Assembly: GCA_919902505.1 (NCBI GenBank)
Contig: CAKKRE010000033.1
Span: 1-64,000, forward strand
Length of the DNA stretch: 64,000 nucleotides
Direction: 5' to 3'
Origin: Nitrospiraceae bacterium
GTDB taxonomy: Bacteria > Nitrospirota > Nitrospiria > Nitrospirales > Nitrospiraceae
Shown here: piece by piece, positions 7,598-62,775 of the stretch
How the letters are laid out: the number at the start of each line of letters is the position of its first letter
Position numbering within the stretch: the stretch's first letter is position 1
Program-made: the position numbers and the translations under genes
The notes under the pieces: generated by a model
Databases searched by the model: none
Seen by the model: only the letters and a program-made list of their open reading frames with translations
Told to the model about the DNA's origin: nothing

Positions 7598-7609
7598 TCG
7601 CAATGCAAA

Positions 7610-7651
7610 GACCAGGATGCCAGGGAAATCCCGTCCGGAGGCATCCTGGTC
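7610..7651 (+). terminator. Hairpin after the zinc-ribbon gene
   Basis: GACCAGGATGCC (7610-7621) pairs perfectly with GGCATCCTGGTC (7640-7651) across an 18-base loop. It begins 12 bases after the stop codon. There is no T tract, so terminator function is inferred from position and stem strength. Confidence 0.55.
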
Positions 7652-7734
7652 ACGACTGTCTTGCAGTGAACTGTATGCGGATAACGAGCATCCCTCTTCA
7701 CAACTCATCCATGCCTAGACCGGTGGAATAAACG

Positions 7735-7911: not shown

Positions 7912-7915
7912 CAGC

Positions 7916-8191
7916 ATGTCGGATCGCCCTGTCATTCAACCTCGCACCCGCGAGGAACAGGAGACCGTTTACTGTTGGCCTTTCTCTCCTCTGCGTTCGT
8001 TTCCGATTGCACGTTCCGTTGAGATTCAAAAGGAGGCACAAGTGAAACGTCGCCCAGCCGAGAGCATGAAATGTGCGTCACTACCGAGCACTCGCTCTAC
8101 CGGCATCTCTCACACTCTTCTTTTTTTGATCATGAAGCAATTGGAAGTCAGTCGGGCAGGAGACGATCATCAACAGGGGAGGCTGCAGTGA
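7916..8191 (+). CDS. Doubtful 91-codon frame coupled to the next gene
   Basis: ATG 7916 lies four bases after the previous stop and the frame ends at a TGA inside the GTGA start of the next gene, an arrangement typical of coupled genes. The product has no recognisable domain, its composition is uneven, and no good ribosome binding site is visible. It may be a chance frame. Confidence 0.25.
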   Translation: MSDRPVIQPRTREEQETVYCWPFSPLRSFPIARSVEIQKEAQVKRRPAESMKCASLPSTRSTGISHTLLFLIMKQLEVSRAGDDHQQGRLQ

Positions 8192-8559
8192 CCTCCACCG
8201 CCAAAACTGTGGTACGCGATGCCGCGATCGTTTACGGGCTGACCTTTGCCGCGGGGCTGTGCATGGCTGCAGCCGGGATAACCCTTGAGAACAATTCTTC
8301 AACCGCATATCTCTGTAATTTGTTGTCAGGAGTGCTCGGCTTCACCCTGGTGGGCACTCGCCTCTCCGCCAACCGAGCGGAACACTTGGCATGGGTGGCG
8401 GCAACCCTCTGGACCTTCAACCTTACGAATATCGCACTGGGACTCCAAACCAGCTCAGCATGGATACACAGCGGCCTCACCATCCTGCTCATGGCCTCCT
8501 TAGGCGGAAGCCTCGCCATGATCCTCACCCTGACATCGGCAGCCGATCGTCGAACGTGA
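8188..8559 (+). CDS. Small multi-span membrane protein
   Basis: A 123-residue hydrophobic protein with about four predicted transmembrane helices: around IVYGLTFAAGLCMAAAG, the NLLSGVLGFTLVG segment, the LWTFNLTNIALG segment and the LTILLMASLGG segment. GTG 8188 is chosen because GGGGAGG lies five bases upstream; the frame extends further upstream without membrane character. No family recognised. Confidence 0.65.
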   Translation: MTSTAKTVVRDAAIVYGLTFAAGLCMAAAGITLENNSSTAYLCNLLSGVLGFTLVGTRLSANRAEHLAWVAATLWTFNLTNIALGLQTSSAWIHSGLTILLMASLGGSLAMILTLTSAADRRT

Positions 8560-8728
8560 ATGTCTTTCAGGCAACAGACGCACAACCCTGAAAATCCAGG
8601 AGCGTTCAGGTTGAAGCGAGGTGGAGGGGCTGCGGCTTAGCTCATGGGAGATCGACGAGAAAGCAGGCGAGCGAACACGTATCAGAGCATAGCAACAGAC
8701 TAGACCTACGCCTCAAGAGGCAACGTCA

Positions 8729-10165: not shown

Positions 10166-13100
10166 GTTGGTAGTCGCGCTCCTTTGGGGGATCATCCGGT
10201 GCATCCGCTGTTGGAGGAGTCTGCTTTTTCAAGCGGCGACTCAACGAGCGGATCAGCACAAAGAATAACGGCACGAAAAAGATGGCCAGAAAGGTAGCCG
10301 CCAGCATCCCGCCGAACACCCCGGTGCCGATGGAGTTTCGGCTGGCAGCGCCGGCGCCCGTGGCAATGACCAGAGGTACCACGCCGAGAATGAAGGCCAT
10401 CGACGTCATGACAATCGGACGAAACCGGAGCTTCGCCGCCTCGATCGTCGCCTCCAGCAACGGATGGCCTTCCTCATAGCGTTTGTTCGCAAATTCCACG
10501 ATTAGAATCGCGTTTTTCGCCGAGAGTCCGATCAGTGTCACCAGCCCGATCTGGAAGTAGATATCGTTGGTCATCCCCTTGAGCCAGACTGCGCTGAGCG
10601 CGCCGAAGAGACCGATCGGCACCGCCAGAATCACCGCAAACGGCACCACCCAGCTTTCATACTGGGCAGCCAGCACCAGGAACACCATCAGCAACCCGAA
10701 CGCGAACGCATACAACGACTGGCTGCCGACCATACGCTCTTGATAGGAAATGCCGCTCCAATCGATCCCGTATCCCTGCGGAACCAGCACCTCTTTCGCC
10801 ACTTGTTCGAGCGCGTCCAGCACCTGGCCTGAGCTGAATCCAGGGGCTGCCGCCCCCAACACCAGCGCGGTATTGTAGCCATTGAAGTGCGTCACAGGAT
10901 CGGGACCACTCGTGAACTCCGTGTTCACCACGGTGTCCAACGGAATCATGGTGGCGCCTTGAGGACTACTCGCCCGCACGTAAATCTTCGAAATATCCTC
11001 CGGTGTGGAACGATACTGCGCATCGGCCTCGGTCTGCACACGGAAGACGCGGCCGAACTTGATGAAATCATTGATGTACAAATTGCCGAAATACGCCTGC
11101 ATCGTATCGAACACCTCCGAGATCGGCACACCCAGCGCCTTCGCCCGCTCGCGATTCACCGTCGCAAGAATGCGCGGCGCGCTGACGCGAAAACTCGTGC
11201 CGATCGCGCCGATCGCCGGATTCTGCCTTGCCTTGCCGACGAACTCCTGGGCGGCGGCGGAGAACTTGTTGAAATCCCCGCTGCTCGGATCCTGAAGCTG
11301 CAGGGTAAACCCGCCCGTAGCCCCAAGTCCCCGAATGGAAGGCGCATTGAAAGCCAGAATGAGCGCTTCCGAGATCTTGGCAAATTCTCCGTAGGCCGCG
11401 CCGATGAGAGCTTTCACATGATGCTGCGGAGCCGAGCGCTCGTCCCAATGTTTCAACGGCACGAACATCGTGGCGGCATTCGGCCCCCGCGTATTGAAGA
11501 CAAAGTTCTGACCGGACAGGGCATCGGTTGAATGGATGACCGGGCTTGCCAGGAAATAGCTCTCGATCTTGCTCAGTACTGCATCCGTCCGCTGCTTGGA
11601 GGCGCCATCGGGCAGCTGCACGATGGTGATGAAGTAGCCCTGGTCTTCCTCCGGCAGGAAACTGCTCGGAATGACCCTGAACAGCATGAACACACCGATC
11701 AACAGGACTGCGAACACCGCCACCGACAAGACGCGTCGAGTCAGCGCCTGACCGACTGTCGAGATATACCGCAACTGCATCCACGAAAAGAATCGATTGA
11801 AGAGGCCAAACAATCCATGGTGCCGCTCCTCCCCTGGCTTCAGAACGAGAGCACAGAGCGCGGGACTGAGGGTCAACGCGACAAACCCGGAGATGATGAC
11901 CGCGATCGAAATCGTAATCGCGAACTGCTTATACAACTCACCGGTAATGCCACCCAAAAACCCGACCGGCACAAACACCGCGCACAGCACCAACACAATC
12001 GCAATAACCGGCCCCGTCACCTCTTCCATCGCCCGCTTGGCGGCATTCTTGGCAGAAAGCCTCCCCTGGGTCATATGCCGTTCACAATTTTCCACGACGA
12101 CAATCGCATCATCCACCACAATGCCGATCGCCAGCACCATGCCGAACAGGGTCAAGGTATTGATCGAGAAACCCAAGGCCTGCATCCCGGCAAAGGTGCC
12201 GACGAGGGAGACCGGCACCGCCACGCCGGGAATCAAGGTCGCGCGCCAACTCTGGAGGAAAAGATAGACCACCAGAATGACGAGCACCATCGCTTCAGCC
12301 AGCGTCTTTACCACTTCTTTGATGGAGACATCGATGAAGCGTGTCGTGTCGTACGGAATATCGTAGGACACGCCGGTGGGAAAACTCTTGGACACCTCGG
12401 CCAGTTCAGCACGAACCCGCTTCACCGTTTCGAGCGCATTGGCACCGGGCGACAGGAACGTCAGCAAAAACACGTTCGGTTTACCGTTCCAACGCCCTTC
12501 CAGCGTATAGGATTGTGCACCCAGTTCAACGCGAGCTACGTCCTTGAGGTGGATCATCGATCCATTCGGCATGGCACGGACGATCAACTCCTCGAACTCC
12601 TTCACCTCCGTCAACCGGCCCTGCGTGATGACGGGAATGGTGAGCTCGGTGCCCTTCAACGCCGGCTCACGGCCGATCGTTCCGGCCGGAAAATCCCGGT
12701 TCTGCTCACGCACAACGTTGGCAATATCCGTCGGCGTCAAGCTGAGCTGGGCCATCCGGATGGGATCCAGGATGAGCCGCATCGAATAGTTCTGGGAACC
12801 GAACACCACCGCATTGCCCACTCCGCGCAACCGCTTCACATTGTCGAGCACGCGGAGAATCGCATAGTTCGACAAATACACCGTGTCATGCGTCGGATCG
12901 CTGGAGCTCAGCGCGACCACCGACAGCAGATCGGGAGAGACCTTATTGATGCTGATCCCCTGGCGCACGACCTCAGGCGGCAGCTGCGGTTCCGCGAGTT
13001 TCACCCGATTCTGTGTTTGCACTTGAGCGATGTCCACGTCAGTGCCGATCTCGAACGTCAGCTTGATCGACATGTGCCCGTCGTTCGTGCTGGTGGAATC

Positions 13101-13337
13101 GTAGTACAGCAGATTGTCGATGCCCGGAAGCTGGACCTCAATCGGACGCGCCACGGAGTCGGCCACGATCTCCGCGTTGGCACCCGGGTAGTCAGCCTCG
13201 ATCTGGACGACGGGAGGAGTAATTTCTGGAAATTGAGCGACCGGCAGCGCCTTCAGGGCAACCAGGCCAACCACCATGATGACGATGGACAGGACCGACG
13301 CAAAAATCGGGCGGTCGATAAAAAAATGGGAGATCAC
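10158..13337 (-). CDS. RND multidrug efflux pump, HAE1 family (AcrB/MexB-like)
   Basis: A 1059-residue inner-membrane drug/proton antiporter, the usual size for AcrB. It starts with SHFFIDRPIFASVL, typical of HAE1 pumps, and carries the proton-relay VVDDAIVVVEN motif in TM4 and the repeated large periplasmic loops. Its GTG start overlaps the adaptor stop by four bases (GTGA) and its end overlaps the outer-membrane factor start, so all three are one operon. The substrate cannot be read from sequence; AcrB-type lipophilic compounds are likely. Confidence 0.96.
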   Translation of the reverse strand: MISHFFIDRPIFASVLSIVIMVVGLVALKALPVAQFPEITPPVVQIEADYPGANAEIVADSVARPIEVQLPGIDNLLYYDSTSTNDGHMSIKLTFEIGTDVDIAQVQTQNRVKLAEPQLPPEVVRQGISINKVSPDLLSVVALSSSDPTHDTVYLSNYAILRVLDNVKRLRGVGNAVVFGSQNYSMRLILDPIRMAQLSLTPTDIANVVREQNRDFPAGTIGREPALKGTELTIPVITQGRLTEVKEFEELIVRAMPNGSMIHLKDVARVELGAQSYTLEGRWNGKPNVFLLTFLSPGANALETVKRVRAELAEVSKSFPTGVSYDIPYDTTRFIDVSIKEVVKTLAEAMVLVILVVYLFLQSWRATLIPGVAVPVSLVGTFAGMQALGFSINTLTLFGMVLAIGIVVDDAIVVVENCERHMTQGRLSAKNAAKRAMEEVTGPVIAIVLVLCAVFVPVGFLGGITGELYKQFAITISIAVIISGFVALTLSPALCALVLKPGEERHHGLFGLFNRFFSWMQLRYISTVGQALTRRVLSVAVFAVLLIGVFMLFRVIPSSFLPEEDQGYFITIVQLPDGASKQRTDAVLSKIESYFLASPVIHSTDALSGQNFVFNTRGPNAATMFVPLKHWDERSAPQHHVKALIGAAYGEFAKISEALILAFNAPSIRGLGATGGFTLQLQDPSSGDFNKFSAAAQEFVGKARQNPAIGAIGTSFRVSAPRILATVNRERAKALGVPISEVFDTMQAYFGNLYINDFIKFGRVFRVQTEADAQYRSTPEDISKIYVRASSPQGATMIPLDTVVNTEFTSGPDPVTHFNGYNTALVLGAAAPGFSSGQVLDALEQVAKEVLVPQGYGIDWSGISYQERMVGSQSLYAFAFGLLMVFLVLAAQYESWVVPFAVILAVPIGLFGALSAVWLKGMTNDIYFQIGLVTLIGLSAKNAILIVEFANKRYEEGHPLLEATIEAAKLRFRPIVMTSMAFILGVVPLVIATGAGAASRNSIGTGVFGGMLAATFLAIFFVPLFFVLIRSLSRRLKKQTPPTADAPDDPPKERDYQHA

Positions 13338-14530
13338 GAGGCGTGCTCCGGCTGCGGCTTGGCGGCAGTCGGAACGGTCGTCGCGGCAGGAGCAGGCAGC
13401 GGCACGGGCTTCACCGGCGCGCCGGGCGCGATCTTATGCAGACCTTCCACGATGATGCGGTCTCCGACATGCAACCCTTGCTCGACAATCCATTGGTTGC
13501 CTTGCCAGCTGGTCGCCTGAACCTCCCGCATCTCGACCTTGTCCTCATTCCCGACGACAAACACGATGGAACCCCTGGCGCCTTGCTGCACCGCACGTTG
13601 CGGGACTAGAATCGCGCCCGTCTTGACTGTCCCCTTGAATCGCACCCGGACGAACTGTCCCGGCAGCAGCACGCGATCATGATTGGGAAAGACTACCCGG
13701 GCCTGCCGAGATCCCGTATCGGTTTTGAGTCCGACATCGAGTAGATCCAACACGCCCTCCTGCCCATACGTCGTCCCGTCCGCAAAGGTCAGGACGCCGC
13801 GCAATTGGTAGACGCCGGGATGCTGAATCCGCTTGGCCGTACTGTCGCGCTGCCGCTTCAACAGAAAACTTTCCGGCGCGCTGACGATCACATACATGGG
13901 ATCGACCTGTTGAATGACCGTCAACAAATCGGTTTGGGCCGATAGGAGCCGACCTTCATACACGCGAGTCCGCTCAATCATGCCGCTGATGGGCGCCACG
14001 ATCAGCGTGTTGTCGAGATCAAACTTGGCTTTGACCAGTTCCGCCTTGGCGCCTTCGAGGTTCGCCTTCGCGGCCATCTCTTCGGCCACCGCATCATCGA
14101 CATCTTTTGTACTCACGGCCTGCTCAGCCAACAAGGGCTTCACCCGGGCTAGATTCTGCTTGGCCTGCACCAATCGCGCCTCCGCCTGAGCGACTTTCGC
14201 CCTTGCGCTCAACATTGCGGCATGAAAGGGCACCGGGTCGATCTGATAGAGGCGGTCGCCTTTCTTGACGTCGCGGCCTTCCTTGAAGAACCATTCCTTG
14301 AGAATCCCAGTCACCTGCGATCTGATTTCCACCGGCCGCGAGGATTCCGACTGTCCGATGAACTCCGGCTCATCGGGCACGTCCTGCGCCGTCGCCACGA
14401 CAATGCCGACCTCAGGTACCGGAGGAGCCTGGGAGGAACCGACCTCCGGCTTACAGCTTGAGAGCAGCGCCAGCGCAAGACACCCGTACATCATCGGGCC
14501 GACAGTTGAAACTCGTGATCGCCTGGCCAT
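13334..14530 (-). CDS. RND periplasmic adaptor (AcrA/MexA-like)
   Basis: A 398-residue membrane-fusion protein with lipobox LLSSC, a beta-barrel/lipoyl/alpha-hairpin layout (VEIRSQVTG near residue 70, an Ala-rich hairpin with AKVAQAEARL, then lipoyl return PISGMIERTRV). It links the pump to the outer-membrane channel. ATG 14530 has GGGAGTGAG upstream and starts a proper signal peptide; an upstream in-frame ATG at 14566 lacks both. First gene of the operon. Confidence 0.94.
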   Translation of the reverse strand: MARRSRVSTVGPMMYGCLALALLSSCKPEVGSSQAPPVPEVGIVVATAQDVPDEPEFIGQSESSRPVEIRSQVTGILKEWFFKEGRDVKKGDRLYQIDPVPFHAAMLSARAKVAQAEARLVQAKQNLARVKPLLAEQAVSTKDVDDAVAEEMAAKANLEGAKAELVKAKFDLDNTLIVAPISGMIERTRVYEGRLLSAQTDLLTVIQQVDPMYVIVSAPESFLLKRQRDSTAKRIQHPGVYQLRGVLTFADGTTYGQEGVLDLLDVGLKTDTGSRQARVVFPNHDRVLLPGQFVRVRFKGTVKTGAILVPQRAVQQGARGSIVFVVGNEDKVEMREVQATSWQGNQWIVEQGLHVGDRIIVEGLHKIAPGAPVKPVPLPAPAATTVPTAAKPQPEHAS

Positions 14531-49308: not shown

Positions 49309-51732
49309 CTATGTGTCAGCGATGCGAAGGGTATCCAGATACTGTCTCCGGGCATGCGGATCTGAGGGAGCGGTTTCGACGTGAGGCAGGGCGAGCGTGT
49401 AGAGTAGTGCGGCGAGCAGCACGCGGCCGATGCGGCCATTGAAATCCTTGAAGGGGTGAATCCACTGGAAGCGCCAGTCGGCCCAGGCCAGGAGCCCGGC
49501 GCATCCACTAAGCGTTGCCCCCGGCTCATGGCGCAACCGTTCGGCCAGATCATCACAGAATTGCCGCATATGGATCGGGACTTCAGAGAACGGCGGCGGC
49601 GTGTGGGCGCCGACTTGCACAGTCACATCCCGGAAGCGCCCGGCCCAATCCGGAAACAAATGACCAGCCAGCCGTTGGTGACGCACACACAGCCATTCCG
49701 GCGAGATGACGATCTGATCGGGCTTGGTTTGCAGAATTTCGTCGTAGATCGCAACGAGCGGCACGGCGAGCCGTTCGGATAGCTCCGAATAGGAGAGACG
49801 GCCTTCGGCCGTATCGAACTGACGAGTCGAGCCTAACTCGCTTTGGCGTTCGGAATCCCCATCAGAGTCTTGAGGCGCTCTGTACTGACCGGTTGGCTCT
49901 CGAACGCCATGGACTGGCTCACCCGCTCCAGCAGCACTTTCCGGTGCGCTGCCGCCACCTTCGTCGGGGTATTGTGCTGCGCCCTCCACTGTTGCAGACG
50001 CACCTCGGCTTGCGCCAGGTCGATCGGCTGGTTTGACTTCTGATTCATGACCGTCATTCTCCTGCACTGTGGATGAAGATGCAACCGAGGCCGATTCCAC
50101 AATCTTGATCTCTTCTTCCGTCAAGCCATAGAGATCATAGACCAACCGGTCGATCTCCTGATCCGTCGCGTCGATCTGACGTTGCAGCCGGTCCTTGTCT
50201 GCAGGCGTCTTGACGCCAGTGAGACGCTGGTGCAACTCCAACATGCCTTCGACGAGAGTGACCATCCGGCCATGCCGCTCTTTGTCTGCTTTCGCGGTGA
50301 AGTCGATGACTCGAATCGGCACCTTCTCCATATATTGGTAAATGAGTCGGTAGCGATACTGGCCGGCACGCACGCCGAACGGGATGCTGAGATTGCTGAT
50401 GGCAAACCAAAATAGTCGGCTATTCAGAATGCCGAGGAGACAGGGATCGTCCACACCCAAACAGTATGCGGTATTAGCGAGATACCGCCCGCTCCGATCC
50501 AGAAAGAACCGTGGCGCCTTGCAGATGTCGGGGAAAATGATCTTGGGACCTTCAAAGTATTCGTAGTAGTCGCATGAACGCAGTTCCCACCAATACTGTC
50601 CCTTGTCTTGACGTTTACGGCAGGCTTCGGCAAATGGTTCAAAATGCCTGGCGATATTGCGATGCGTCGCGGAAAACCAGTTCCAGGCCTCGCGCTCAGA
50701 CACCTGTCCGCCTGCCTTCTTTTCCTTCGCCATAGCCGTCTGCGTCCAGCCGGAGGGAAGCACGATTAAGAAGCGCCCGTCATCTTCAATTTCATAACGG
50801 CGAATATTCTGACCGCCAAGGAATGGCTTAATGAGGGGTTCGTTTTGGTGAGCGCCCAACACCAGCTTATCGCGCTGTTCCTGACTCAGCTCAAACGCCT
50901 CATTCAAACCCGTCAGCAATCCGCGAAAGAACTTTCGATCAACGTATTCGCCGAGCGGCTTGCCGGCCTTCATCACCTTCTCAAACACTGTCGCCTCTTC
51001 GTCTGACTTCAGAGACCAGGCGTTCGCTGTTAGTCGCTCCTGCGGGATCGTGAAGCGATGGTCAATTGCGCTATCGTCCAAGCTGGGAAAAACCAGCGAA
51101 GGAATACGCGAGACCTCGATACGTGCGGGTTGCTTCGTTTTCGCCAGAAGCGGAATGCAGACATAGGTGTCCTTGGCGTTCTCGAATACGGCCAGTCCGC
51201 CGAAATCCAGGATGCGGAGCACGGCGGCCTGTCTCTTGAGCGTTCGGCGCAAGGCTTCCCCATAGGTCGTGCGGAGAAAGCTACTGGATACGATGAAGCT
51301 GAAACGTCCCCCTTCGCGTAGCAGCGCCACGCTCTTCTCCATGAAGTAAGCATAGAGATCAGCCACCCCGTCGAAAGCTTCGTAGTGTCGAGCCAGATAG
51401 TCTTTGAATCCCGACAAGGACTCCTGCCGCACATACGGCGGATTGCCGATGACGGCATCGAAGCCGCCGGCCTTCATGATCTCCGGGAACTCGGCCTTCC
51501 AATCGAAAGGATTCACGCGGCGCATTTCTTCATCGTCCGGCATGAGTTGACCCGCGAAATAGTCCGGCCCGATGAGACTGTTGCCGCATTTGATGTTCTG
51601 GCCCAGGTCCGGCAACGCACGCTCGTGAACAAAGGAGAGCTGCCGTTTCAGTGTCTCGTCGCTTTCCCCCTCCAGCACTTTCAGGGACAGACTGAGTTTC
51701 GTCACTTCCACCGCTTGGCTGTCGATGTCCAC
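49309..51732 (-). CDS. Type IIG-like RM enzyme, C-terminal part, fused in frame to a Fic domain
   Basis: An 807-residue frame: MTase catalytic motif NPPYVRQESL near residue 95, a target-recognition region, and YDLYGLTEEEIKIVES, which normally ends such proteins. The frame stays open through about 110 low-complexity residues and then reads a Fic domain with HPFKDFNGRIGR (49423-49458), close to HPFx(D/E)GNGRxxR but with Phe for Gly. The N-terminal half is in another frame (51777-53114), separated by one missing base near 51823. The Fic part may be a separate gene whose antitoxin is at 49833-50057. Confidence 0.8.
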   Translation of the reverse strand: MDIDSQAVEVTKLSLSLKVLEGESDETLKRQLSFVHERALPDLGQNIKCGNSLIGPDYFAGQLMPDDEEMRRVNPFDWKAEFPEIMKAGGFDAVIGNPPYVRQESLSGFKDYLARHYEAFDGVADLYAYFMEKSVALLREGGRFSFIVSSSFLRTTYGEALRRTLKRQAAVLRILDFGGLAVFENAKDTYVCIPLLAKTKQPARIEVSRIPSLVFPSLDDSAIDHRFTIPQERLTANAWSLKSDEEATVFEKVMKAGKPLGEYVDRKFFRGLLTGLNEAFELSQEQRDKLVLGAHQNEPLIKPFLGGQNIRRYEIEDDGRFLIVLPSGWTQTAMAKEKKAGGQVSEREAWNWFSATHRNIARHFEPFAEACRKRQDKGQYWWELRSCDYYEYFEGPKIIFPDICKAPRFFLDRSGRYLANTAYCLGVDDPCLLGILNSRLFWFAISNLSIPFGVRAGQYRYRLIYQYMEKVPIRVIDFTAKADKERHGRMVTLVEGMLELHQRLTGVKTPADKDRLQRQIDATDQEIDRLVYDLYGLTEEEIKIVESASVASSSTVQENDGHESEVKPADRPGASRGASATVEGAAQYPDEGGGSAPESAAGAGEPVHGVREPTGQYRAPQDSDGDSERQSELGSTRQFDTAEGRLSYSELSERLAVPLVAIYDEILQTKPDQIVISPEWLCVRHQRLAGHLFPDWAGRFRDVTVQVGAHTPPPFSEVPIHMRQFCDDLAERLRHEPGATLSGCAGLLAWADWRFQWIHPFKDFNGRIGRVLLAALLYTLALPHVETAPSDPHARRQYLDTLRIADT
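49833..50057 (-). CDS. Small Fic-antitoxin-like gene nested in another frame
   Basis: A 74-codon gene with GCAGGAGA just before ATG 50057 (ATG 50048 also possible). Product: NQPIDLAQAEVRLQQWRA, VAAAHRKVLLERVSQSMAFES and VSTERLKTLMGI. It is helical, and SMAFES is close to the Fic-inhibiting motif (S/T)xxxE(G/N). It lies exactly in the stretch between the methylase and Fic domains, but in a different frame from both. Codon use looks more natural here than in the long frame. It would block the Fic active site. Confidence 0.6.
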   Translation of the reverse strand: MTVMNQKSNQPIDLAQAEVRLQQWRAQHNTPTKVAAAHRKVLLERVSQSMAFESQPVSTERLKTLMGIPNAKAS

Positions 51733-51776
51733 GCCGTAGATGTTGTTCAGGAGGATCCGCTTCTTCTCCTGCGTGG

Positions 51777-53114
51777 TCAGCCGCCACTCGCCGCTGGACG
51801 CCAGAAAGAGTTCCTTGCGGTGTTTTCCGGGCCGTCCTCCACATACCAGTCGCGGTGGTAATTGAGCAGAAACCGATAGGCGCCGAGCAGGAACGATCCC
51901 GACCCGCAGGCCGGATCGAGAATTGTAAGCTTCGCAATCTGCTTGGGCGTCTTACCGTCGCACAAAACTCCAACCGTCTGCTTCACGATGTATTCGACGA
52001 TGTACGCCGGTGTGTAATAGACGCCGCCGGCCTTCTTGACCTCGGGCTTCTCTTCGACCTTGGCCTGATGGCCTGACGTGAGACGAATGACCTTGCCAAG
52101 GAACTGCTCATAGACCTGGCCCAGGATTTCCGTGGGGAACACGGAGAATTCATAGGGACTGTTGGGATAGTAGAGCCGTCCGATGATGTCTTTGAGGGTT
52201 TTGTCGTCGATCTTCAGGCTGGGAGTCAGCTTGTCGGGCGCTTCGGCCCGGCCTTTCTCGGACTGGAAGTGAAAGAGGCCGGAGTTGTACCGGTCGTCGG
52301 CCTGCTCGTAGAGGTAGCGTAGCCGTCCATAGATGTCCTGGCCGTTGAGCAAGGCCTGGAGTTGCGCATAGGGTTCGATGCCCCGGTCTTCGGCGATACG
52401 GAGGAAGATGAGCCGATCGATGGTGCGCTGCACCGAAAAATTCAGCTCGTACACGGAGAGCTTCGGATTGCGGAGCGCGAGATTTTTGGCGAGCGCCTCC
52501 CGCCAAGTCTCGATCTCCTTCAGGAACTCGGCATCGACCGTGGCAGTGCCCCGTTTGCGATCGGTGACGGCATATTTATCGAAGGAGCCTTTAAGGACGG
52601 CCTCCTTACTGAAGATTGAAGCGATCGCATCCCACTTGGTCAGGTAGTCCCGATAGGTAAGGTACAGAATGCGTCCCGCGCTGGGCTTGTCGGACGGATT
52701 GGGGCGTGTACGGCAATCGTAGACGGCGAATTCTTCGAAATCGGTCAGGATCGAGAGCGGCAGTTTGGCCGACCAGGCGTAGCGTCTGATCTGATAGGCC
52801 GGAGGAATCTCCTCTTTGACATTGACGGCCGGTTTTTTGGCTTCCAGGAAAAACTTACGCGCGCCGCCGATGCGGAAGCAGTAGTCGGGCGCTTTGGTGT
52901 TGCCGCCGATCTTGATGGCATCTTCATGGATGACATCTTTGTGCGCCTCGGCATGCCCCTGTGTGTTGGGCACATCCCAACCCAGCGCTTCGAACAATGG
53001 GTCGAGAAACTCCCGACGCACTTGGGTTTCGTTGTAGCTCTGGCTCTTATAGGACTCGCGATTCTGCTCGAACCGGTCGATGAGGGTGGCAACGATAGGA
53101 GGCGCCTGGCTCAT
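51777..53114 (-). CDS. Type IIG-like RM enzyme, N-terminal part
   Basis: A 445-residue frame holding a PD-(D/E)xK nuclease (PDYCF with Asp77, and EAK with Glu91 and Lys93), a helical region and the start of the adenine methylase, DPACGSGSFLLGAY (motif I). The frame then slips: HRKELFLASSGEW continues in another frame. One extra base in the four-T run at 51823-51826 would join it to the 807-codon part, giving a single Eco57I-like enzyme that cuts and methylates. Real loss or assembly error cannot be told apart. Confidence 0.88.
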   Translation of the reverse strand: MSQAPPIVATLIDRFEQNRESYKSQSYNETQVRREFLDPLFEALGWDVPNTQGHAEAHKDVIHEDAIKIGGNTKAPDYCFRIGGARKFFLEAKKPAVNVKEEIPPAYQIRRYAWSAKLPLSILTDFEEFAVYDCRTRPNPSDKPSAGRILYLTYRDYLTKWDAIASIFSKEAVLKGSFDKYAVTDRKRGTATVDAEFLKEIETWREALAKNLALRNPKLSVYELNFSVQRTIDRLIFLRIAEDRGIEPYAQLQALLNGQDIYGRLRYLYEQADDRYNSGLFHFQSEKGRAEAPDKLTPSLKIDDKTLKDIIGRLYYPNSPYEFSVFPTEILGQVYEQFLGKVIRLTSGHQAKVEEKPEVKKAGGVYYTPAYIVEYIVKQTVGVLCDGKTPKQIAKLTILDPACGSGSFLLGAYRFLLNYHRDWYVEDGPENTARNSFWRPAASGG

Positions 53115-54465: not shown

Positions 54466-55114
54466 CATGTCATGTCGTCTCACATACCCTGAACCCTTTG
54501 AATGGAGTCCGGAAAGACTCCGTCCGACGCGACGCGCGCCTGCCCCCGAGCCGCGTCAAGGACGACGCCTGCTTTCTCGATATGCTGGTCGGTGATGTGG
54601 TTCGACTCATTCGACTCCGCCCGCACCAGCGCCATCGTAGATGGCGGCCGACGCGACATACCGACTCGCAGTGAGTACACGCTGCCTCGCCGCTGTATCT
54701 TTTTGGATCAAAGCTGTATCGGAACAGATACCTTCCGCTTATGGGCATAAAAGCCCTGGCTGTCTGGCTCTACTTCAGGGGCACACATAGTAGGTGCTAA
54801 GCCGCTGGCAGCATTGAAGACTCTGGCAGCGGCGCAGAGGATACACCGGTCGGCGGTGAGAACGGTACGTCCTTTGCCTTCCGATCAATCGAGGCTCAAA
54901 GAGGAGGGCGCGAAAGGGGAGAATTGCGGAAGCGTATCTCGCCATGCGTCCGTCGGCAATGAGAGCCATCCTTATCAGAGTGCCTTAGTTTCCGGAAACC
55001 TCCACGACCCCGACAGGACAGATCCGTACCAGGGACGAAGACTGAGCAGAAGGCCCCACGCAAATATTGATGACCTCTTCGTAGACACTCTGCTTTATCC
55101 GGCAAGAGGCACCC
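54466..55114. other. Region upstream of the lipid-oxidation genes
   Basis: 649 bases. A minus-strand frame of 66 codons (54480-54680, RAESNESNHITDQHIEKAG) has natural-looking composition but no ribosome binding site or recognisable domain. No sigma-54 or TGTCGA-type site is visible. The promoter of the peroxidase-lipoxygenase-kinase run should be here. Confidence 0.35.
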
Positions 55115-55894
55115 ATGAAGAGCACAGACCGCGTATTGAATGTTCTGGCATGGTGCTACCGCCTGGTGAACCATGTTCTCCCCTGGCACCGCCTCCCGAA
55201 GATTCTCGGTATCGGCAATCTGGTCGCGCTTCGGCATGACCTGCGACGCTGGAATCTCTTCGACACGGCCCCCCTCGTGGCTGGAACCGGAAAGCGCCCC
55301 TGCCCCTTTCACAGCAAGGACCTCGAGGAACGACGGGCTGATGGATCGCACAACGATCTCCAGGCTCCCTCGATGGGCAGCGCCGGCTGTCCCTTCGGAC
55401 GAAATGCCCCGTTCGACGTCATTTCAGCTCCGCCGGAACCGGGACTCGAAACACCGAGCCCCCGTGCGATCAGCCGGTTATTGATGACTCGAACGCAATT
55501 TATTCCGGCGACCTCCTTGAATCTCCTGGCCGCGGCCTGGATCCAGTTCCAGGTTCACGACTGGTTCGGACATCAGCAGGAGGATGAGGCCACGGCCCCG
55601 ATCGAGTTGGCCGAAGGCGATACGTGGCGCGAACATCCGATGATGGTCCGCCGGACCAAGCAGGCCTCAGGCGCCGCGCGCGGGTGCCCGGCGAAAGTTC
55701 CCATCTTTCTCAACACCGAGACTCACTGGTGGGACGGGTCTCAGCTCTACGGCAGTGGCGCCACACGTCAGCAGCAGGTCCGGTCCGGCCGGAGAGGCAC
55801 ACTCACGATCGACCAGGGCCGTCTGCCCTCCATGGAGAGTGTCGATCGGGAACTTCCGGGGATCGACCTCACCGGCTTCAACGATAACTATTGA
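55115..55894 (+). CDS. Animal-type heme peroxidase/dioxygenase, part before in-frame TGA
   Basis: The first 259 codons of a protein of about 610 residues in the family of fatty-acid dioxygenases (PIOX/DOX/linoleate diol synthase type). It has RLLMTRTQFIPATSLNLLAA and FQVHDWFGH with distal His148, then HWWDGSQLYGS and GFNDNY. TGA at 55892-55894 replaces the Trp of NYWIGLSLLH; the frame continues without other change. GAGGCACCC precedes ATG 55115. The N-terminus has no signal peptide. It is followed by a lipoxygenase gene. Confidence 0.85.
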   Translation: MKSTDRVLNVLAWCYRLVNHVLPWHRLPKILGIGNLVALRHDLRRWNLFDTAPLVAGTGKRPCPFHSKDLEERRADGSHNDLQAPSMGSAGCPFGRNAPFDVISAPPEPGLETPSPRAISRLLMTRTQFIPATSLNLLAAAWIQFQVHDWFGHQQEDEATAPIELAEGDTWREHPMMVRRTKQASGAARGCPAKVPIFLNTETHWWDGSQLYGSGATRQQQVRSGRRGTLTIDQGRLPSMESVDRELPGIDLTGFNDNY

Positions 55895-56947
55895 ATCGGG
55901 CTCAGCCTGCTTCACACCCTCTTCGCGCTGGAACACAATGCGATCTGCGAGGCCCTGTGTCACCGCTATCCTCCCTGGACCGACGAGCAACTCTTTCAGA
56001 AGGCACGCCTCATCAATGCCGCCCTGATCGCCAAGATCCACACCGTGGAGTGGACACCTGCGCTGCTTCAACACCCGACGCTCGATCGCGGCATGAAGGC
56101 GAACTGGTGGGGGCTCCTCGGCGAACCGATCCGAAAACGCTTCGGACGGCTGAGTGACAGTGAAGTGTGGAGCGGCATCCCGGGCTCACCCACAGACCAT
56201 CATACGGCGCCCTATGCGATGACCGAGGAGTTTGCCGCGGTGTACCGTCTCCACCCCCTGATCCCCGATGAATACCGGTTCTTTTCATTGAGTGATTCGA
56301 CCGTCAGTCACTACAAATCGTTTCCTGACATCCAGGGTAATCAGACCCGATCGACCATCGACGAAGTCGGAATCGACAACGTCTGGTTTTCCTTCGGGAT
56401 GGCTCATCCCGGGCAATTGACGCTGGGCAACTTCCCGCGCTTTCTCCAGGAGTTTCGCCGGGTCAAGCGATTGCCCGACGGGGATCGTGAGATTCTCGAC
56501 GTGGCCGCCCTCGATATCTTCCGCGATCGCGAACGCGGGGTGCCTCGCTACAACGCGTTCCGGCGCATGCTGCGCATGAAACCGGTGAAGAGCTTCGAGG
56601 CATTGAATCCCGAGTGGGCCAAGAAACTGCACGACCTGTATCGGGGCGATATCGAGGGACTGGACCTGATGGTGGGCCTCTATGCCGAGGAACCGCCGCC
56701 GGGTTTCGCCATCAGCGACACGGCCTTCCGGATCTTTACCCTGATGGCCCCGCGCCGGCTCAAGAGCGACCGGTTTTTCACCGCCGATTTCCGGCCGGAG
56801 GTGTACACGGCCCTTGGCCTCGACTGGGTGCAGGACAATGACTTCACCAGCGTGCTGCTGCGTCACTATCCGTCGCTCGCGCCGGCCATACGGGGCCTCG
56901 AGAACGCGTTCCTTCCCTGGCACAACGTCCATGAACCCATGCGGTAG
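55895..56947 (+). CDS. Animal-type heme peroxidase/dioxygenase, part after in-frame TGA
   Basis: Continues in the same frame with IGLSLLHTLFALEHNAICE, then EWTPALLQHPTL, EEFAAVYRLHPLIPDEY (proximal heme ligand His at codon 380 of the joined gene) and a C-terminal FLPWHNVHEPMR. The parts together have the heme-binding and substrate-tunnel pattern of bacterial alpha-dioxygenase-like enzymes. If TGA is real, this part has no obvious start and the enzyme is lost; a GTG or internal ATG could give only a fragment. Confidence 0.8.
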   Translation: MGLSLLHTLFALEHNAICEALCHRYPPWTDEQLFQKARLINAALIAKIHTVEWTPALLQHPTLDRGMKANWWGLLGEPIRKRFGRLSDSEVWSGIPGSPTDHHTAPYAMTEEFAAVYRLHPLIPDEYRFFSLSDSTVSHYKSFPDIQGNQTRSTIDEVGIDNVWFSFGMAHPGQLTLGNFPRFLQEFRRVKRLPDGDREILDVAALDIFRDRERGVPRYNAFRRMLRMKPVKSFEALNPEWAKKLHDLYRGDIEGLDLMVGLYAEEPPPGFAISDTAFRIFTLMAPRRLKSDRFFTADFRPEVYTALGLDWVQDNDFTSVLLRHYPSLAPAIRGLENAFLPWHNVHEPMR

Positions 56948-57019
56948 AGGTGAATTCCGAACAGGACGGCATGACGCCTTGATCCCCCGTCTTTCCCTCC
57001 CCGCCAGAGAGGATGCCCC

Positions 57020-58618
57020 ATGTCACTGATCAATTCGCTCCAATGGATGATCCGTAAAGGCTTCTGGAATTTCATTGCCAGGCGAAAATATCGCTCTACC
57101 GTTCCCAGGGAAGTGACGGCCGTTGCCGCCGCCCGGTCCCCCGTGAACTTGATTCCTCTCAACGAAGCCTTCCCCGCCATTCCCATCGCGGGCATCCGTA
57201 TCGCGGAGCGCGTCCCGTCCGATGAAGCGCGGGTGAAGGAGGAACATTTCATGGGCAGCCTGGCCCGGCTCTCTACCATCTTTTCACCCATGCAGGCCGG
57301 AAGGCCGGCCGTCGCGGCCGATCCCTACCAGGTCCTGGACGAGGCCTATACCAAGCGCCATCGTCAGGCGGTCCTTCGACAGGCGGCGACGCTCACGGTC
57401 GCCCCAAGACGGACTCTTCAGTCTCCGACATTGCCGGCCGAACTCCACTGCATCCCGGATCTGGGAATGCTGGCTCTTCGCGGACCCTACGCGGGTTATC
57501 TCCGAAAAGTGTCCAACCGCGCCGACGAGTTCGAATGGAATCTCGAATCGCTTGGCTCGTACAGTCACCATGCGGATCTCTACGCCCCCTGGGCGGAAGT
57601 CCTGTTCAAGGCGGGTCCCGGGCATGGGTCACTCAAGGCCGTTCACATCCGGTGCGAACTCGGTTCCATCCGTCCCGACGATGCGAATTGGGCCTTCGCC
57701 GCGCGGATCGCCATCTGTGCCGCCACGACCCACACGGCGCTGGTTCGACATTGGACTTGGACCCACCTGATCGGAGGAGAGTCTTTCTCAGCGGCCACGC
57801 GCAACCATCTGCCGCCCGACCATCCCTTATGCCGCCTGCTGTGGCCCCACATGGTAGGCACACATGCGAGCAACCGACTGGCCATCCTGGGACAGCTGGT
57901 CCCCGAAGGCGACTTTGAAACCATTTATAGCCTGACCTATTCCGGGATATGCCAGCTCGTCGGCAAGGCCGGCCAGGATTTCAACCTGCGGGTCTGCGAT
58001 CCCGAAGAAGACGCGCGGCATCGCGGCCTGCTCGACAGCGGCCTGCCGATGCAGACCTACTCCAACTGCCGGCGAATCTTTCGGGTCATCCTGGCTCATG
58101 CCGAACGATACCTGCGTCTGTACTATACGGACGACGCGCTCGAGACGGATCAACCGATCAGGCATTGGCTGGCTGAATTGGAGCGCCTCATACCGAACGG
58201 ACTTGGGCTTGCCCCCAGTCCGCTCACCTGTGCCTGGTTGGCGCGAGTGGTCGCCCGGTTCATCTATCTGGTGTCCGTCCAGCACGAACAGTTCGGCACG
58301 CAGTTATGGAATTATCAACTCTGGACGCACACCCATCCCGTGCGGGTCTACCGTGACGGCCGCCGCGTGCCGGAAGATGTGTACCAGCGATTGGTCAACT
58401 CCAACTACATCCTCAGTGTCGTCCGCTCGCCCTTGGTGCAGGATTATGCACCCCTCGCTCTGCATGAACCTGCCTGTCCCGATCGACAACGACAGGCGGA
58501 AGCAACGTTCGCGCGTTTCCGGCTCGACCTGACCCGGCTGCAACGGAAGATGGAGCGAACACCCTGGGCGCCCTGGACCTTGTATCCGGCTGACCTCGAG
58601 GCGAATATCAATGCCTGA
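57020..58618 (+). CDS. Lipoxygenase-family protein with unusual metal site
   Basis: A 532-residue protein matching the lipoxygenase catalytic domain: HWTWTH (His244 and His249, the HxxxxH iron ligands), HPLCRLLWPHMVGTHASNR, and VQHEQFG (His422). The usual ligand four residues after the third His is Gly426, not Asn/His/Ser, and the C-terminal residue is Ala, not Ile. So iron binding is incomplete by the standard rule, though the HEQxG form recurs in a bacterial subgroup. Substrates would be polyunsaturated fatty acids. It lies 72 bases after the peroxidase; GAGAGGATG precedes ATG. Confidence 0.8.
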   Translation: MSLINSLQWMIRKGFWNFIARRKYRSTVPREVTAVAAARSPVNLIPLNEAFPAIPIAGIRIAERVPSDEARVKEEHFMGSLARLSTIFSPMQAGRPAVAADPYQVLDEAYTKRHRQAVLRQAATLTVAPRRTLQSPTLPAELHCIPDLGMLALRGPYAGYLRKVSNRADEFEWNLESLGSYSHHADLYAPWAEVLFKAGPGHGSLKAVHIRCELGSIRPDDANWAFAARIAICAATTHTALVRHWTWTHLIGGESFSAATRNHLPPDHPLCRLLWPHMVGTHASNRLAILGQLVPEGDFETIYSLTYSGICQLVGKAGQDFNLRVCDPEEDARHRGLLDSGLPMQTYSNCRRIFRVILAHAERYLRLYYTDDALETDQPIRHWLAELERLIPNGLGLAPSPLTCAWLARVVARFIYLVSVQHEQFGTQLWNYQLWTHTHPVRVYRDGRRVPEDVYQRLVNSNYILSVVRSPLVQDYAPLALHEPACPDRQRQAEATFARFRLDLTRLQRKMERTPWAPWTLYPADLEANINA

Positions 58619-61469
58619 CGGATCGCCGGCTGACCCGCCTGTCCGCTCCGAAGGGGCGGATGAGGGACTCTGCTCGCTTCTGGCGAAGGATCACACCATT
58701 CTCGAACGCCCGCTGATGGTCTTTCGTCCCTTCGGAACCGATGAGCATGGACACAAGATTGCCGACGTCAGCGGAACCCTCGTCCTGTCCAGCATCCAAC
58801 ATCTGGAAAAGTGCGTCCCAAAAACCGGCGGACCGGAAGGGGCGGCTTCCGCCGTCGAGCACCTGTGCCGGCTGCTCAACGATCGCATTCCGGACTCGGC
58901 CTACCACGTGACGCCCGACTTTCTGAGAAAGGAATGGAACAGCTATTCGTATGAGTTTCTCAGTTACCTGCGGGAGATTTGCGCACAGCTCTCCGGAGAT
59001 CCGGATTTTCATTTCAATACCGGGTTGACCAAAGTCATCTCCCCGGTATTCCGTGTCCTCGCCCGCCCCTTCTCACTGTCCCAGTTTTCCAGGCTCGCGC
59101 TCTACTGGGCTCAACGATATACTCAGGGCACGATCGAGTGCGAAGTGGCGAACGTAACCGATCACTCGATGATCTACCGCCTGCGCTTTACCGACCATAC
59201 GCTCCGGCAATTCGGCCCCTACCTCAAAGCCTGTGCGCATCAGGTCTGCGCCTCCACGAAGGGACGGATGGTCGCCGCGCCGACGCTCGTTCACGGCGGT
59301 CCGCCGGCGACCGTCACCGATCGAGCCTGTATCGTCAACGGAGATCCCTGGTGCGAATGGGAAGTCCGGTGGCATCCCGAGCCCGCACAGTCTTATTGGT
59401 TTCTCTGGACTCTCCTTCCAGCCACACTGGCCTGGCTATACCTTCACTGGTTTTATCCGGCGATGTCGGGAGTGGAGGCGCTGCTCGTGGTCCTGATCCC
59501 CACCTTCATCACCGCACTCGTCACGGAGTTGCGGCAACGCAGTCTCGCACGCCGGCGCGAGTCGTTGATCCAGGAGCAGATGCAATTTGTCGATGCCCGT
59601 TATGAAGATCTGCGCGACACTGTTATTCAGCAGGAACAGACGCGTGTCGAACTCCGGCGCAAAGTCAATCAGCTCACGGCGCTCAACCGCGCGGGGCTTG
59701 GCTTTAACTCGACGCTGGACCGCGAAGCCCTGGTGCAGACTGTGCTGGAGACCCTCATCCAGGATTTACATTACGACCGCGCGATGATGAGTTTTTACGA
59801 CCCCGATCGCAACATTCTTTACGACGGCCGCATCCTCGGAGTCTCTGAGGATATTGCGGAACTCGTCCGGCGGAGGGAACTGTCGGTTTCTGACCCGCAG
59901 GGATTTCCCGCTTCTGCCTTGCGCGACGGCAAACCGCTTCTCGTCCATGATATTGCCAGTATTTGGGATCGCTTACATCCGGCCAACCAGGAGTTGGCGC
60001 GGCTCACGAGAACCAAGTCCCTCATCTGGGTTCCCCTAATCATAAAAAGCCGCATCCTCGGGACGCTCACGGTTGATCGCACGGCACCTAACACGTTGAC
60101 GGGTGAGGACCTGGATCTGATGGTGACCATCGGAACCCAGATTGCGATCGCGCTGGACAATGCCGCAGCCTACGCCCAGATCGAAGAACTGAATATCGGA
60201 CTGGGGTCGAAAGTGCGCGAGCGGACCGCCGAGCTGGAACGAGCCGATCGGTCCCGTTCCCTTTTTCTCTCTCATGTCTCCCATGAGCTTCGCACTCCGC
60301 TGACCTCCGTCAAAGGATTCGTCGAAAACCTCCTGGACGGCCTCACCGGCACGCTCAACGAGAAACAACAACGCTATTTGGCCCGGATTGCCGACAACGT
60401 CGGCCGCCTCATTCGCATGATCAATGACCTTCTGGATCGCACGAGGATCGAAACCGGACAGTTGGCCTTGTCGCCTGCCGAAGTGGATCTCGAACGTTGT
60501 GTGGCCGAAGTTATCGAGCAGTTACGCTCCATGGCCGTCGAAAAACATCACACACTCAGCGCCGAGTATCCGGCCTCACCGTTGATCGTATGGGCGGATC
60601 GAGACCGGTTGATTCAGATCGTCACCAATCTTCTGCAAAACGCCATCAAGTTCACTCCGGAGGGCGGGTCGATTTCAGTTTATGTCATGGCGGAACAACC
60701 GACGCACGCCACCCTGCGCGTCTGCGATACAGGCCCGGGAATCCCACCCGAGTTCCTCGAAAAGATCTTCGATCCCTTTTTCCGGATGGCTCAGGAACAA
60801 CGCGGCAGTTCCAAGGGCCTTGGCCTGGGATTATCGATCGTGAAAACGCTCGTCGAGCTTCACAACGGGCAGATCGCAGTACGCAGCCAACCGGGGGTGG
60901 GAACGGAATTCTCCGTCATGCTGCCTCTTATCCCGGCATCCTCCCCGGCTGTATTCACTACACAGGCCAGGGAAAAACGCCTTCTGATCGTGGATGACGA
61001 TCCCGACATTCGGCAACTCTTGGTGGATCGCCTGAGTGCCGACGGTTACCAAGTCGAGACCGCCGTCGATGGAACCCAGGCCTTGCAGGCGATTCGACAG
61101 GGTAGATTTTCCGGGGTGCTCCTGGATATCGGAATTCCAGGGGTCGATGGCCTGGACGTGCTGCATCAGGTACGACAGTCCAACCAGCAACTTCCCATTG
61201 TCATCATCACCGCGGCCGAATCGAAGGATCTGGCCGTTCGCGCCATCAGCTTCGGCGCGCAGGCCTATGTCCTCAAGCCATTCGACCCGAAAGAACTCGA
61301 ACAGGTCGTAGACCACTGGTTTGCGCAGGTCATCGTCCAACGGTGCCCCGCGGACGTCCGGAAACGCCATGTCCTGGACCTGCTCAGGACGACAAAACCC
61401 TCCCCTCCTCCCGCCAACTTATCCAAGCCCCTCCTTGCAGAATCCCGATCTGATGCTGTGTTATCCTGA
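58611..61469 (+). CDS. Membrane hybrid histidine kinase with V4R-like, GAF and receiver domains
   Basis: A 952-residue protein whose ATG overlaps the lipoxygenase stop by 8 bases, showing coupling. Residues 1-260 form an N-terminal sensor ending GDPWCEWEVRW, a Cys pattern like V4R/heme-NO-type sensors. Two membrane helices follow (about residues 265-305), then a GAF domain (LNRAGLGFNSTLDREALV), coiled coil, HisKA (SHVSHELRTPL, phospho-His558), HATPase (NAIKFTPEGG; DTGPGIPPEF) and a receiver (LLIVDDDPD; phospho-Asp839). No DNA-binding output is fused. A link to lipid-peroxide sensing is inferred from the operon. Confidence 0.92.
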   Translation: MPDGSPADPPVRSEGADEGLCSLLAKDHTILERPLMVFRPFGTDEHGHKIADVSGTLVLSSIQHLEKCVPKTGGPEGAASAVEHLCRLLNDRIPDSAYHVTPDFLRKEWNSYSYEFLSYLREICAQLSGDPDFHFNTGLTKVISPVFRVLARPFSLSQFSRLALYWAQRYTQGTIECEVANVTDHSMIYRLRFTDHTLRQFGPYLKACAHQVCASTKGRMVAAPTLVHGGPPATVTDRACIVNGDPWCEWEVRWHPEPAQSYWFLWTLLPATLAWLYLHWFYPAMSGVEALLVVLIPTFITALVTELRQRSLARRRESLIQEQMQFVDARYEDLRDTVIQQEQTRVELRRKVNQLTALNRAGLGFNSTLDREALVQTVLETLIQDLHYDRAMMSFYDPDRNILYDGRILGVSEDIAELVRRRELSVSDPQGFPASALRDGKPLLVHDIASIWDRLHPANQELARLTRTKSLIWVPLIIKSRILGTLTVDRTAPNTLTGEDLDLMVTIGTQIAIALDNAAAYAQIEELNIGLGSKVRERTAELERADRSRSLFLSHVSHELRTPLTSVKGFVENLLDGLTGTLNEKQQRYLARIADNVGRLIRMINDLLDRTRIETGQLALSPAEVDLERCVAEVIEQLRSMAVEKHHTLSAEYPASPLIVWADRDRLIQIVTNLLQNAIKFTPEGGSISVYVMAEQPTHATLRVCDTGPGIPPEFLEKIFDPFFRMAQEQRGSSKGLGLGLSIVKTLVELHNGQIAVRSQPGVGTEFSVMLPLIPASSPAVFTTQAREKRLLIVDDDPDIRQLLVDRLSADGYQVETAVDGTQALQAIRQGRFSGVLLDIGIPGVDGLDVLHQVRQSNQQLPIVIITAAESKDLAVRAISFGAQAYVLKPFDPKELEQVVDHWFAQVIVQRCPADVRKRHVLDLLRTTKPSPPPANLSKPLLAESRSDAVLS

Positions 61470-61494
61470 ATGAGTGGACAGACGAGGGATCACC

Positions 61495-62775
61495 ATGTCT
61501 CTCTCCCGCAGGGCCTTTCCCATCTCAGCTCTGTTGCTGGCTTGCTTCTCCATTCCGGCCCTCGCGCCATCCGCCGGTTTCGCCTCCATCTATACCTACA
61601 CCGACGCCGCCGGTGTTCAAACCTTTACGAACCAACTCGAGTCCGTCCCCGAACAATATCGAAACAGACTGACATCACAGGAGCTCGACACGCCTCCAGC
61701 CGTTTCCTCTGCTCCGCCTCGCGCCGTTGCCGAATCACCGACGCGCTCCGCCGATTCCCGCACCGTCACAGCCAGCGGCGAATATCGTTTGGGCGATCAC
61801 GACACCCGCACGGATGGCGCGCGTCTGGCGGTCGAAGCCGCCAAGAGAGATGCGCTCGAACAGGTGGCCACGTATCTGGAACGGGTCACGGAAGTGCGCG
61901 ACATGAACCTCACACGTGATGACATCCGGAGTTACACGGCTGGCATCGTCACGGTGTTGGAGGAAACCATCACGACCAGGGTCGAGCACGAGAGTATCGT
62001 GATCCGCGCTGAGTTGACGGCAGAGATCGACCCGCATGAAGTCGCACAGGCCATTGCGGCCTTGCGGGAAAACGACAGCGCCAGGCGGGAGCTCACGGTC
62101 CTCCGTGCCGAAACCGACCGACTACAGGAACAGCTCGATGCCACCAACCGCGCCCTCGCCGCCGCCCCATCGGCGGAGGAAGTCCAGCAACTCAGCCGCC
62201 AACGTGACGACATGCTGAACGACCTGCAGGCCAATGCCCTTGTCTCACAGGCCTGGACCAGCTGGGCATACCCAACGCTCGGCTTCTATTCCTATCCCTG
62301 GATCGCAGGACCTGGGATCAACGGCTTACTACTCCAGGCACAGCGCCTCTCTCCCCGGCATCGCCACCTCGCGCAGGCACAACAGACCATTGCGGCGCAA
62401 AACGGCGCGCTCGTACCGGCCCCGGCTCACGCCTCCAGCCCCGCGCTGCGCCGCTCATTGCTCGTACCCTCCCCATCGATGCAGAGTCCTCACGCGCCAC
62501 CGTTGCTCAACCAGCAGGGTCTACCGGCCAAAGTGGGAGACATCGTGATCATTCCCACACCGCGCTCCATTCCACCGGTGATGCATCAGTCTGCACCGCA
62601 GCCGCAGCCCTACCAGTTGCACCCGTCCCATTTCTGGCGCCCCAGCCCTCCGAACATTCATACCGCGCCTTCGATCCCGCAACAGAGTCCATCGGTGAGC
62701 TCACGCCCTTCCGGCAAATACCCTGGACCTGGCGGCGGATACTCCCCTAGTAGCAGGGGGCGCCGCGGTCGATAG
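61495..62775 (+). CDS. Secreted DUF4124-domain protein
   Basis: A 426-residue exported protein: signal peptide (ALLLACFSIPALAPSAG), DUF4124 module (IYTYTDAAGVQTFTNQLESV), a helical middle (RRELTVLRAETDRLQEQL coiled coil, residues about 200-250) and a Pro/Ser/Gln-rich, disordered end (APPLLNQQG; SSRGRRGR). ATG 61495 is seven bases after GAGG; GTG 61474 would add seven residues. DUF4124 is thought to bind cell-wall or other envelope components. The kinase stop is 25 bases upstream. Confidence 0.82.
   Translation: MSLSRRAFPISALLLACFSIPALAPSAGFASIYTYTDAAGVQTFTNQLESVPEQYRNRLTSQELDTPPAVSSAPPRAVAESPTRSADSRTVTASGEYRLGDHDTRTDGARLAVEAAKRDALEQVATYLERVTEVRDMNLTRDDIRSYTAGIVTVLEETITTRVEHESIVIRAELTAEIDPHEVAQAIAALRENDSARRELTVLRAETDRLQEQLDATNRALAAAPSAEEVQQLSRQRDDMLNDLQANALVSQAWTSWAYPTLGFYSYPWIAGPGINGLLLQAQRLSPRHRHLAQAQQTIAAQNGALVPAPAHASSPALRRSLLVPSPSMQSPHAPPLLNQQGLPAKVGDIVIIPTPRSIPPVMHQSAPQPQPYQLHPSHFWRPSPPNIHTAPSIPQQSPSVSSRPSGKYPGPGGGYSPSSRGRRGR

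Follow-up and report, generated by a model that had tools for sequence, protein, structure and literature searches.

Conserved linkage of alpha-dioxygenase, lipoxygenase-fold and sensor kinase genes in Nitrospira and relatives: a candidate system for sensing and oxygenating hydrophobic molecules

A run of three genes was found on the + strand of a 64,000-nucleotide stretch of DNA from a Nitrospiraceae bacterium (contig CAKKRE010000033.1, positions 1 to 64,000, hereafter the window). It consists of a gene for an alpha-dioxygenase (alpha-DOX) with one in-frame stop codon (gene 1, 55115–56947), a gene for a protein of 532 amino acids with the lipoxygenase (LOX) fold (gene 2, 57020–58618) and a gene for a hybrid histidine kinase of 952 amino acids (gene 3, 58611–61469). 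The host genome has a size of 4.24 Mb, and its close relatives are named Nitrospira. The arrangement is kept in related and, in part, in distant bacteria, so joint action of the three genes on an oily molecule of some kind is very probable. In our opinion, they probably constitute one functional unit that senses and oxygenates a hydrophobic, probably fatty-acid-like molecule. The proposed system would be modular and is characterised by the identities of its genes, their conserved linkage, the fusion of both enzymes in two relatives and the recurrent association of the kinase with other oxygenases and transporters of hydrophobic substrates.

Bacterial lipoxygenases and alpha-dioxygenases have usually been studied singly. 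The pair considered here, kept across three phyla, twice fused and tied to a kinase in Nitrospirota, gives a handle on the question of why LOX-like genes occur in bacteria for which no production of polyunsaturated fatty acids is known; to our knowledge, Nitrospira are such bacteria. Papers on a Nitrospira lipoxygenase, on an alpha-DOX/LOX operon or on this layout were not found among the open-access papers searched, which is no proof of absence. In a first-pass annotation of the same DNA, made from the sequence, no described system with this three-gene layout was known.

Conservation of the gene order

The survey covered 61 genomes of the order and, in a wider scan, 246 Nitrospirota genomes, with named relatives added; the sample is uneven, and several loci end at contig edges. 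The LOX-like gene is present in nine of the 61 genomes, with the kinase gene directly downstream in all nine and the alpha-DOX gene directly upstream wherever the contig extends. In the window, 72 bases (56948–57019) separate the alpha-DOX gene from the LOX-like gene, and the ATG of the kinase gene (58611) overlaps the stop codon of the latter (58616–58618) by 8 bases, so that the tandem of two oxygenase types and the overlap described in the first-pass annotation are both confirmed. An overlap of exactly 8 bases was found in all seven Nitrospira copies measured. The recurrence of the order in all LOX-carrying genomes of the 61, as far as contig ends allow, together with this identical overlap, indicates that the layout is more than chance. 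Co-occurrence in related genomes had been proposed in the annotation as a check of its idea, and the objection that no conserved neighbourhood exists falls away. All three genes are under purifying selection, with ratios of non-synonymous to synonymous substitution rates (dN/dS) of 0.06–0.25.

In the wider scan, the LOX-like gene was found in 10 of 246 Nitrospirota genomes, and alpha-DOX of this type in eight of these ten and in one other genome (Fisher p 1.4e-12, shared ancestry ignored). The alpha-DOX tally was made by reading match lengths and scores, plus a contig-edge piece in the Nitrospira draft genome G003. Of the 13 Nitrospirota loci that could be assessed, 11 have the alpha-DOX gene immediately before the LOX-like gene, and in two of these 11 both are fused into a single chain. 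In N. moscoviensis (locus L019, 4830–9608), alpha-DOX, several hydrophobic segments and the LOX-fold part form a single chain of 1592 amino acids, followed by the kinase, and a chain of 1753 amino acids with the same succession of parts is encoded in genome G225 (L108, minus strand).

Outside Nitrospirota, alpha-DOX adjoins the LOX-like gene in five of five assessable loci, which belong to Rubrivivax (L018), Burkholderiales (L021), Mycolicibacterium (L020), Mycobacterium (L022) and Pseudonocardiales (L023, divergent orientation). No kinase of this type was found at these Betaproteobacteria and Actinomycetota loci. On a Nitrospinota contig, the LOX-like gene is followed by the kinase. Close relatives of the LOX-like protein were not found on phages, and plasmids gave only distant proteins of the lipoxygenase family.

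Several particular features of these loci can also be mentioned. The LOX-like gene of draft genome G003 is split by a frameshift (L017, 289–1886), which is either a real break or an assembly error. The kinase of the N. moscoviensis locus has no receiver domain, and a gene for a flavin adenine dinucleotide (FAD)-linked oxidase / iron-sulphur protein follows it. In mycobacteria and Pseudonocardiales, an adenylate-cyclase/AAA-type gene is situated beside the alpha-DOX/LOX pair in place of the kinase (L020, 2071–5271; L022, 2–1435; L023, 2665–6009).

The two oxygenase-type proteins

Gene 1 matches the animal haem peroxidase family PF03098 at 348.5 bits, and its best match among solved structures is the plant alpha-dioxygenase 4hhr (E 8e-115). 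The residues H148, H380, Y377, H309, R548 and T314, as well as F373 and F541, are those named for OsaDOX (PMC8720084); they cover the proximal and distal haem histidines, the catalytic tyrosine, the carboxylate-binding histidine and arginine and the substrate-positioning threonine. On these grounds, the product is predicted to be a fatty-acid alpha-dioxygenase of the plant PIOX type, and the animal-type haem dioxygenase recognised in the first-pass annotation is thereby defined more sharply. It resembles the plant and cyanobacterial enzymes (Arabidopsis 4hhr; CalDOX, LepDOX) in its full length and in all named catalytic and substrate residues (PMC8720084), but is paired here with a LOX-fold protein, or fused to one in relatives, and the window copy contains a stop. 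Nitrospirota are absent from the five bacterial phyla for which alpha-DOX was named in the same work.

The reading frame of alpha-DOX is interrupted in the window genome by TGA at codon 260 (55892–55894), in accordance with the mention of a "repaired" peroxidase in the annotation, and is intact in the orthologues, among them that of Nitrospira UBC2 (L012), with tryptophan at this position in all four full-length ones compared. A truncated product of 259 residues would be devoid of the catalytic tyrosine and the proximal histidine, and the alpha-DOX step is probably off in the window genome, except if the TGA results from an error in the sequence or is bypassed by read-through. Selenocysteine or a change of the code at this codon was considered and rejected, since the orthologues compared have tryptophan there and the stop was seen only in the window genome. 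That the unit is decaying in this genome, with alpha-DOX recently turned into a pseudogene and function retained by the kinase and LOX-like genes alone, is a serious possibility, although we rate it somewhat below even chances. It agrees with the place of the stop ahead of essential residues, and in genomes G140 and G195 the order LOX – kinase – FadL is retained without an adjacent alpha-DOX. On the other hand, dN/dS in the stretch after the TGA is 0.06–0.085 against four orthologues and does not exceed that in the stretch before it. Constraint as strong as in intact orthologues implies either a very recent break, an error in the sequence or tolerance of the stop by read-through.

Gene 2 matches the lipoxygenase family PF00305 at 30.1 bits (cut-off 23.6). 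The AlphaFold2 model of its product (pLDDT 82.8) aligns with rabbit 15-LOX (1lox) with Z 34.0 over 414 residues at 2.5 A, and the aligned range reaches the C-terminus of both chains; Z values of 33.3 and 32.0 were obtained with Pseudomonas LoxA and the short cyanobacterial CspLOX2 (5med). Like the lipoxygenases, the protein has three histidine iron ligands (H244, H249 and H422, invariant in 17 LOX-like sequences) and the same place of the chain end. It differs from them in having glycine instead of asparagine or histidine, alanine instead of the C-terminal isoleucine and an identity of only about 20%, and also in that its gene, at every locus with visible neighbours, lies close to alpha-DOX or the kinase.

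The first of these replacements, Gly426, is located four residues after the third histidine and is present in 17/17 LOX-like sequences; 1lox has histidine at this place in the sequence alignment. The chain ends in NINA, with the last residue (Ala532 in the window protein) being alanine in 16 of 17 sequences and serine in one. Among the controls, Acaryochloris LOX has asparagine and the C-terminal isoleucine; a Nostoc plasmid LOX also has glycine, so the glycine change by itself is not unique to this family. Both ligand clusters were reported to be essential for true ALOX sequences (PMC6612559). By this criterion, the protein is not a canonical lipoxygenase and is best assigned to a divergent subfamily of the LOX fold, in which the metal ligands are altered and ordinary LOX chemistry cannot be assumed. 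The designation as a lipoxygenase-family protein, given in the first-pass annotation, holds for the fold, the Pfam match and the three histidines and does not hold for the asparagine/histidine and C-terminal isoleucine ligands. The changed ligands offer a test of which of them the chemistry needs.

It may also be asked whether the LOX-fold protein is a dioxygenase at all. It could be poor in metal and serve alpha-DOX as a partner or scaffold, or catalyse a different step, for example, the rearrangement of the alpha-DOX hydroperoxide. The glycine in all 17 relatives and the missing isoleucine, at positions belonging to the essential clusters, speak for this idea, but the three histidines are retained, the chain ends at exactly the same position, and the N694G mutant of soybean LOX-1 (1y4k) still folds as a lipoxygenase. 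Altogether, we find this explanation rather doubtful.

The kinase, its sensor domain and its neighbours

The Pfam domains of the gene 3 product are GAF, HisKA, HATPase_c and receiver, with H558 and D839 present. A clear hydrophobic segment lies at about residues 281–309, with a possible second one just before it, and the membrane topology is uncertain; the description as a membrane hybrid histidine kinase given in the first-pass annotation is supported by these features. No accepted Pfam match was obtained for the first 255 residues. Residues ~21–262 (58671–59396) represent a candidate ligand-binding domain, whose structure model has a pLDDT of 59.7 and for which fold searches return chiefly H-NOX proteins (top), the V4R sensors MopR, PoxR and DmpR, and TRAPP Bet3. 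H-NOX, V4R and Bet3 share one fold class.

The residues C213, C240, C248 and D237 match the zinc site of V4R domains, which in DmpR consists of C151, E172, C177 and C185 (PMC7264223), and the three cysteines are invariant in 24 kinases. In the profile comparison of the N-terminus with V4R proteins, E 3.3e-4 was obtained on exactly the zinc-cysteine motif with a wider alignment and E 0.0059 with a narrow one, the value for an unrelated control alignment being 0.3. Close kinase relatives have no Pfam V4R, and for this reason, the V4R proteins for comparison were taken from other Nitrospirota families. The window kinase gave no PF02830 match; for related kinases of genomes G103 and G197, Pfam V4R does hit the equivalent domain, with scores under the cut-off. 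A profile of the N-terminus gave no match among sequences of solved structures. Taken together, these data make it likely, although not proven, that the N-terminus is a V4R-like ligand-binding domain.

The V4R domain binds phenol in DmpR (PMC7264223), and PcrS is a known sensor kinase coupling V4R to a histidine kinase (PMC10715001). With these sensors (DmpR, MopR, PoxR; kinase PcrS), the window kinase shares the Cys/acidic zinc motif and, as far as a model of low confidence shows, probably the fold, and it differs from them in the sub-threshold match and in the hydrophobic segment and GAF domain between its sensor and kinase parts. A sensor of gas (nitric oxide or O2) with an H-NOX haem, which would be of relevance for nitrite oxidisers and linked to the oxygenases only indirectly, was also considered and rejected as very improbable: H-NOX domains are the top fold matches, but the confidence of the model is low, and neither the H-NOX proximal histidine nor the YxSxR motif is conserved across the 24 aligned kinases, as judged by eye, while the V4R zinc cysteines are. 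A long + strand frame in genome G197 (L115, G197:C2:888500-896000) encodes a member of this kinase family in which the V4R-like sensor domain is present in two tandem copies.

The N-terminal domain of the kinase was found in 39 of 148 Nitrospirota genomes sampled. FadL proteins transport long-chain fatty acids and hydrocarbons. A second Nitrospira copy of the kinase is located between genes of a RoxA-like haem dioxygenase and a FadL/TodX outer-membrane transporter (L030, L062, L064, L065, L066, L078); the paralogue of the window's own genome (L030, G000:C18:38000-57000, at 7539–13557) belongs to this trio, which recurs in five more of the Nitrospira genomes examined. RoxA itself, a haem dioxygenase, cleaves polyisoprene with O2 (PMC6797691). 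Genome G033 has the order alpha-DOX – LOX – kinase – FadL, and G225 the order fused alpha-DOX/LOX – RoxA-like – kinase – second alpha-DOX-like gene; a RoxA-like gene also follows LOX in Rubrivivax and Rhodoferax. The kinase family thus recurs in association with different oxygenases that act on hydrophobic compounds, and also with a transporter of such compounds. The likeness to RoxA rubber oxygenase operons and FadL/TodX transporter systems concerns paralogues of the kinase, whereas neither gene is present in the window's own operon. In our opinion, the family is a candidate sensor of hydrophobic molecules in nitrifying bacteria.

Possible mode of action and surrounding DNA

It may be supposed that alpha-DOX and the LOX-fold protein share one membrane-associated substrate or work one after the other, with alpha-DOX inserting O2 at the alpha carbon and the LOX-like enzyme at another position. 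The hydrophobic substrate or product would be bound in the V4R-like pocket of the kinase, and signalling would proceed by way of the histidine kinase and the receiver domain that it carries, the most likely effect being that the oxygenase genes are switched on. A bolder scheme, which we regard as unlikely, makes the two enzymes obligate partners in a two-site lipid oxygenase, where a LOX with a reduced, glycine-containing metal site works at the membrane on what alpha-DOX uses or makes, and the V4R-type kinase of the operon reads the ligand.

The oxylipin system of Pseudomonas aeruginosa is based on other enzyme families. It likewise involves bacterial fatty-acid oxygenation (diol synthase) with a regulatory role, and its oxylipins act on the group behaviour of their own producer (PMC5155153). 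An analogous function here, in which lipid hydroperoxides made by the enzymes serve as released or internal signals and the kinase reads these products, is in keeping with the genetic tie between oxygenases and sensor. The RoxA-like and FadL ties of the kinase family agree no less well with a system that takes up hydrophobic compounds from outside and oxidises them, and oxylipin signalling seems to us to have a small chance of being correct. The suggestion of the first-pass annotation that the kinase senses the products or the lipid state gains support, as to ligand sensing, from the V4R-like domain and the recurrent neighbours, and either the substrate or the product may be what is sensed. 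The system might serve to take up and oxidise external lipids, to protect the cell or to signal; the FadL and RoxA-like partners incline us towards substrate-induced oxidation rather than oxylipin signalling.

Some data weigh against the unit proposed here. The alpha-DOX copy of the window genome carries a stop codon, and the metal site of the LOX-like protein, unlike that of characterised lipoxygenases, means that this protein may not oxygenate lipids. The structure model of the kinase N-terminus is of low confidence, and a sub-threshold V4R match is found in only 4 of 24 family members. Seven relatives of the kinase (L063, L067, L068, L069, L073, L074, L076) have no detected oxygenase or FadL neighbour in the stretch covered, and within the window none of the genes adjoining that of the kinase was recognised as a separate response regulator or transcription factor. 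The enzyme activities, the shared substrate, the ligand of the sensor and the regulatory target are predictions.

Upstream of alpha-DOX, a conserved 20-base element, GGTACGTCCTTTGCCTTCCG, was found at 54864–54883 of the + strand. Its 18-base core is shared by five Nitrospira genomes and is identical in them apart from one C/T position, whereas the surrounding DNA has diverged and aligns poorly; the core is situated 132–250 bases upstream of the alpha-DOX start (in relatives, L012 5919; L013 523; L014 5911; L016 5755). This is the sole match in the whole genome at up to 3 mismatches. No upstream element common to the kinase-linked oxygenase operons was found, the 20-base element being specific to the alpha-DOX/LOX/kinase operon, of whose promoter or operator it may form a part.

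Downstream of the kinase, the window contains a gene with a DUF4124 domain (61474–62775), relatives of which occur after the kinase in several Nitrospira, and beyond it, from 62790 onward, a multicopper oxidase gene on the opposite strand. On the minus strand at 49309–53114, a DNA-methyltransferase/restriction-like gene in two pieces was recognised by eye; its 807-amino-acid piece ends with a Fic-motif-like HPFKDFNGR, likewise noted by eye only.

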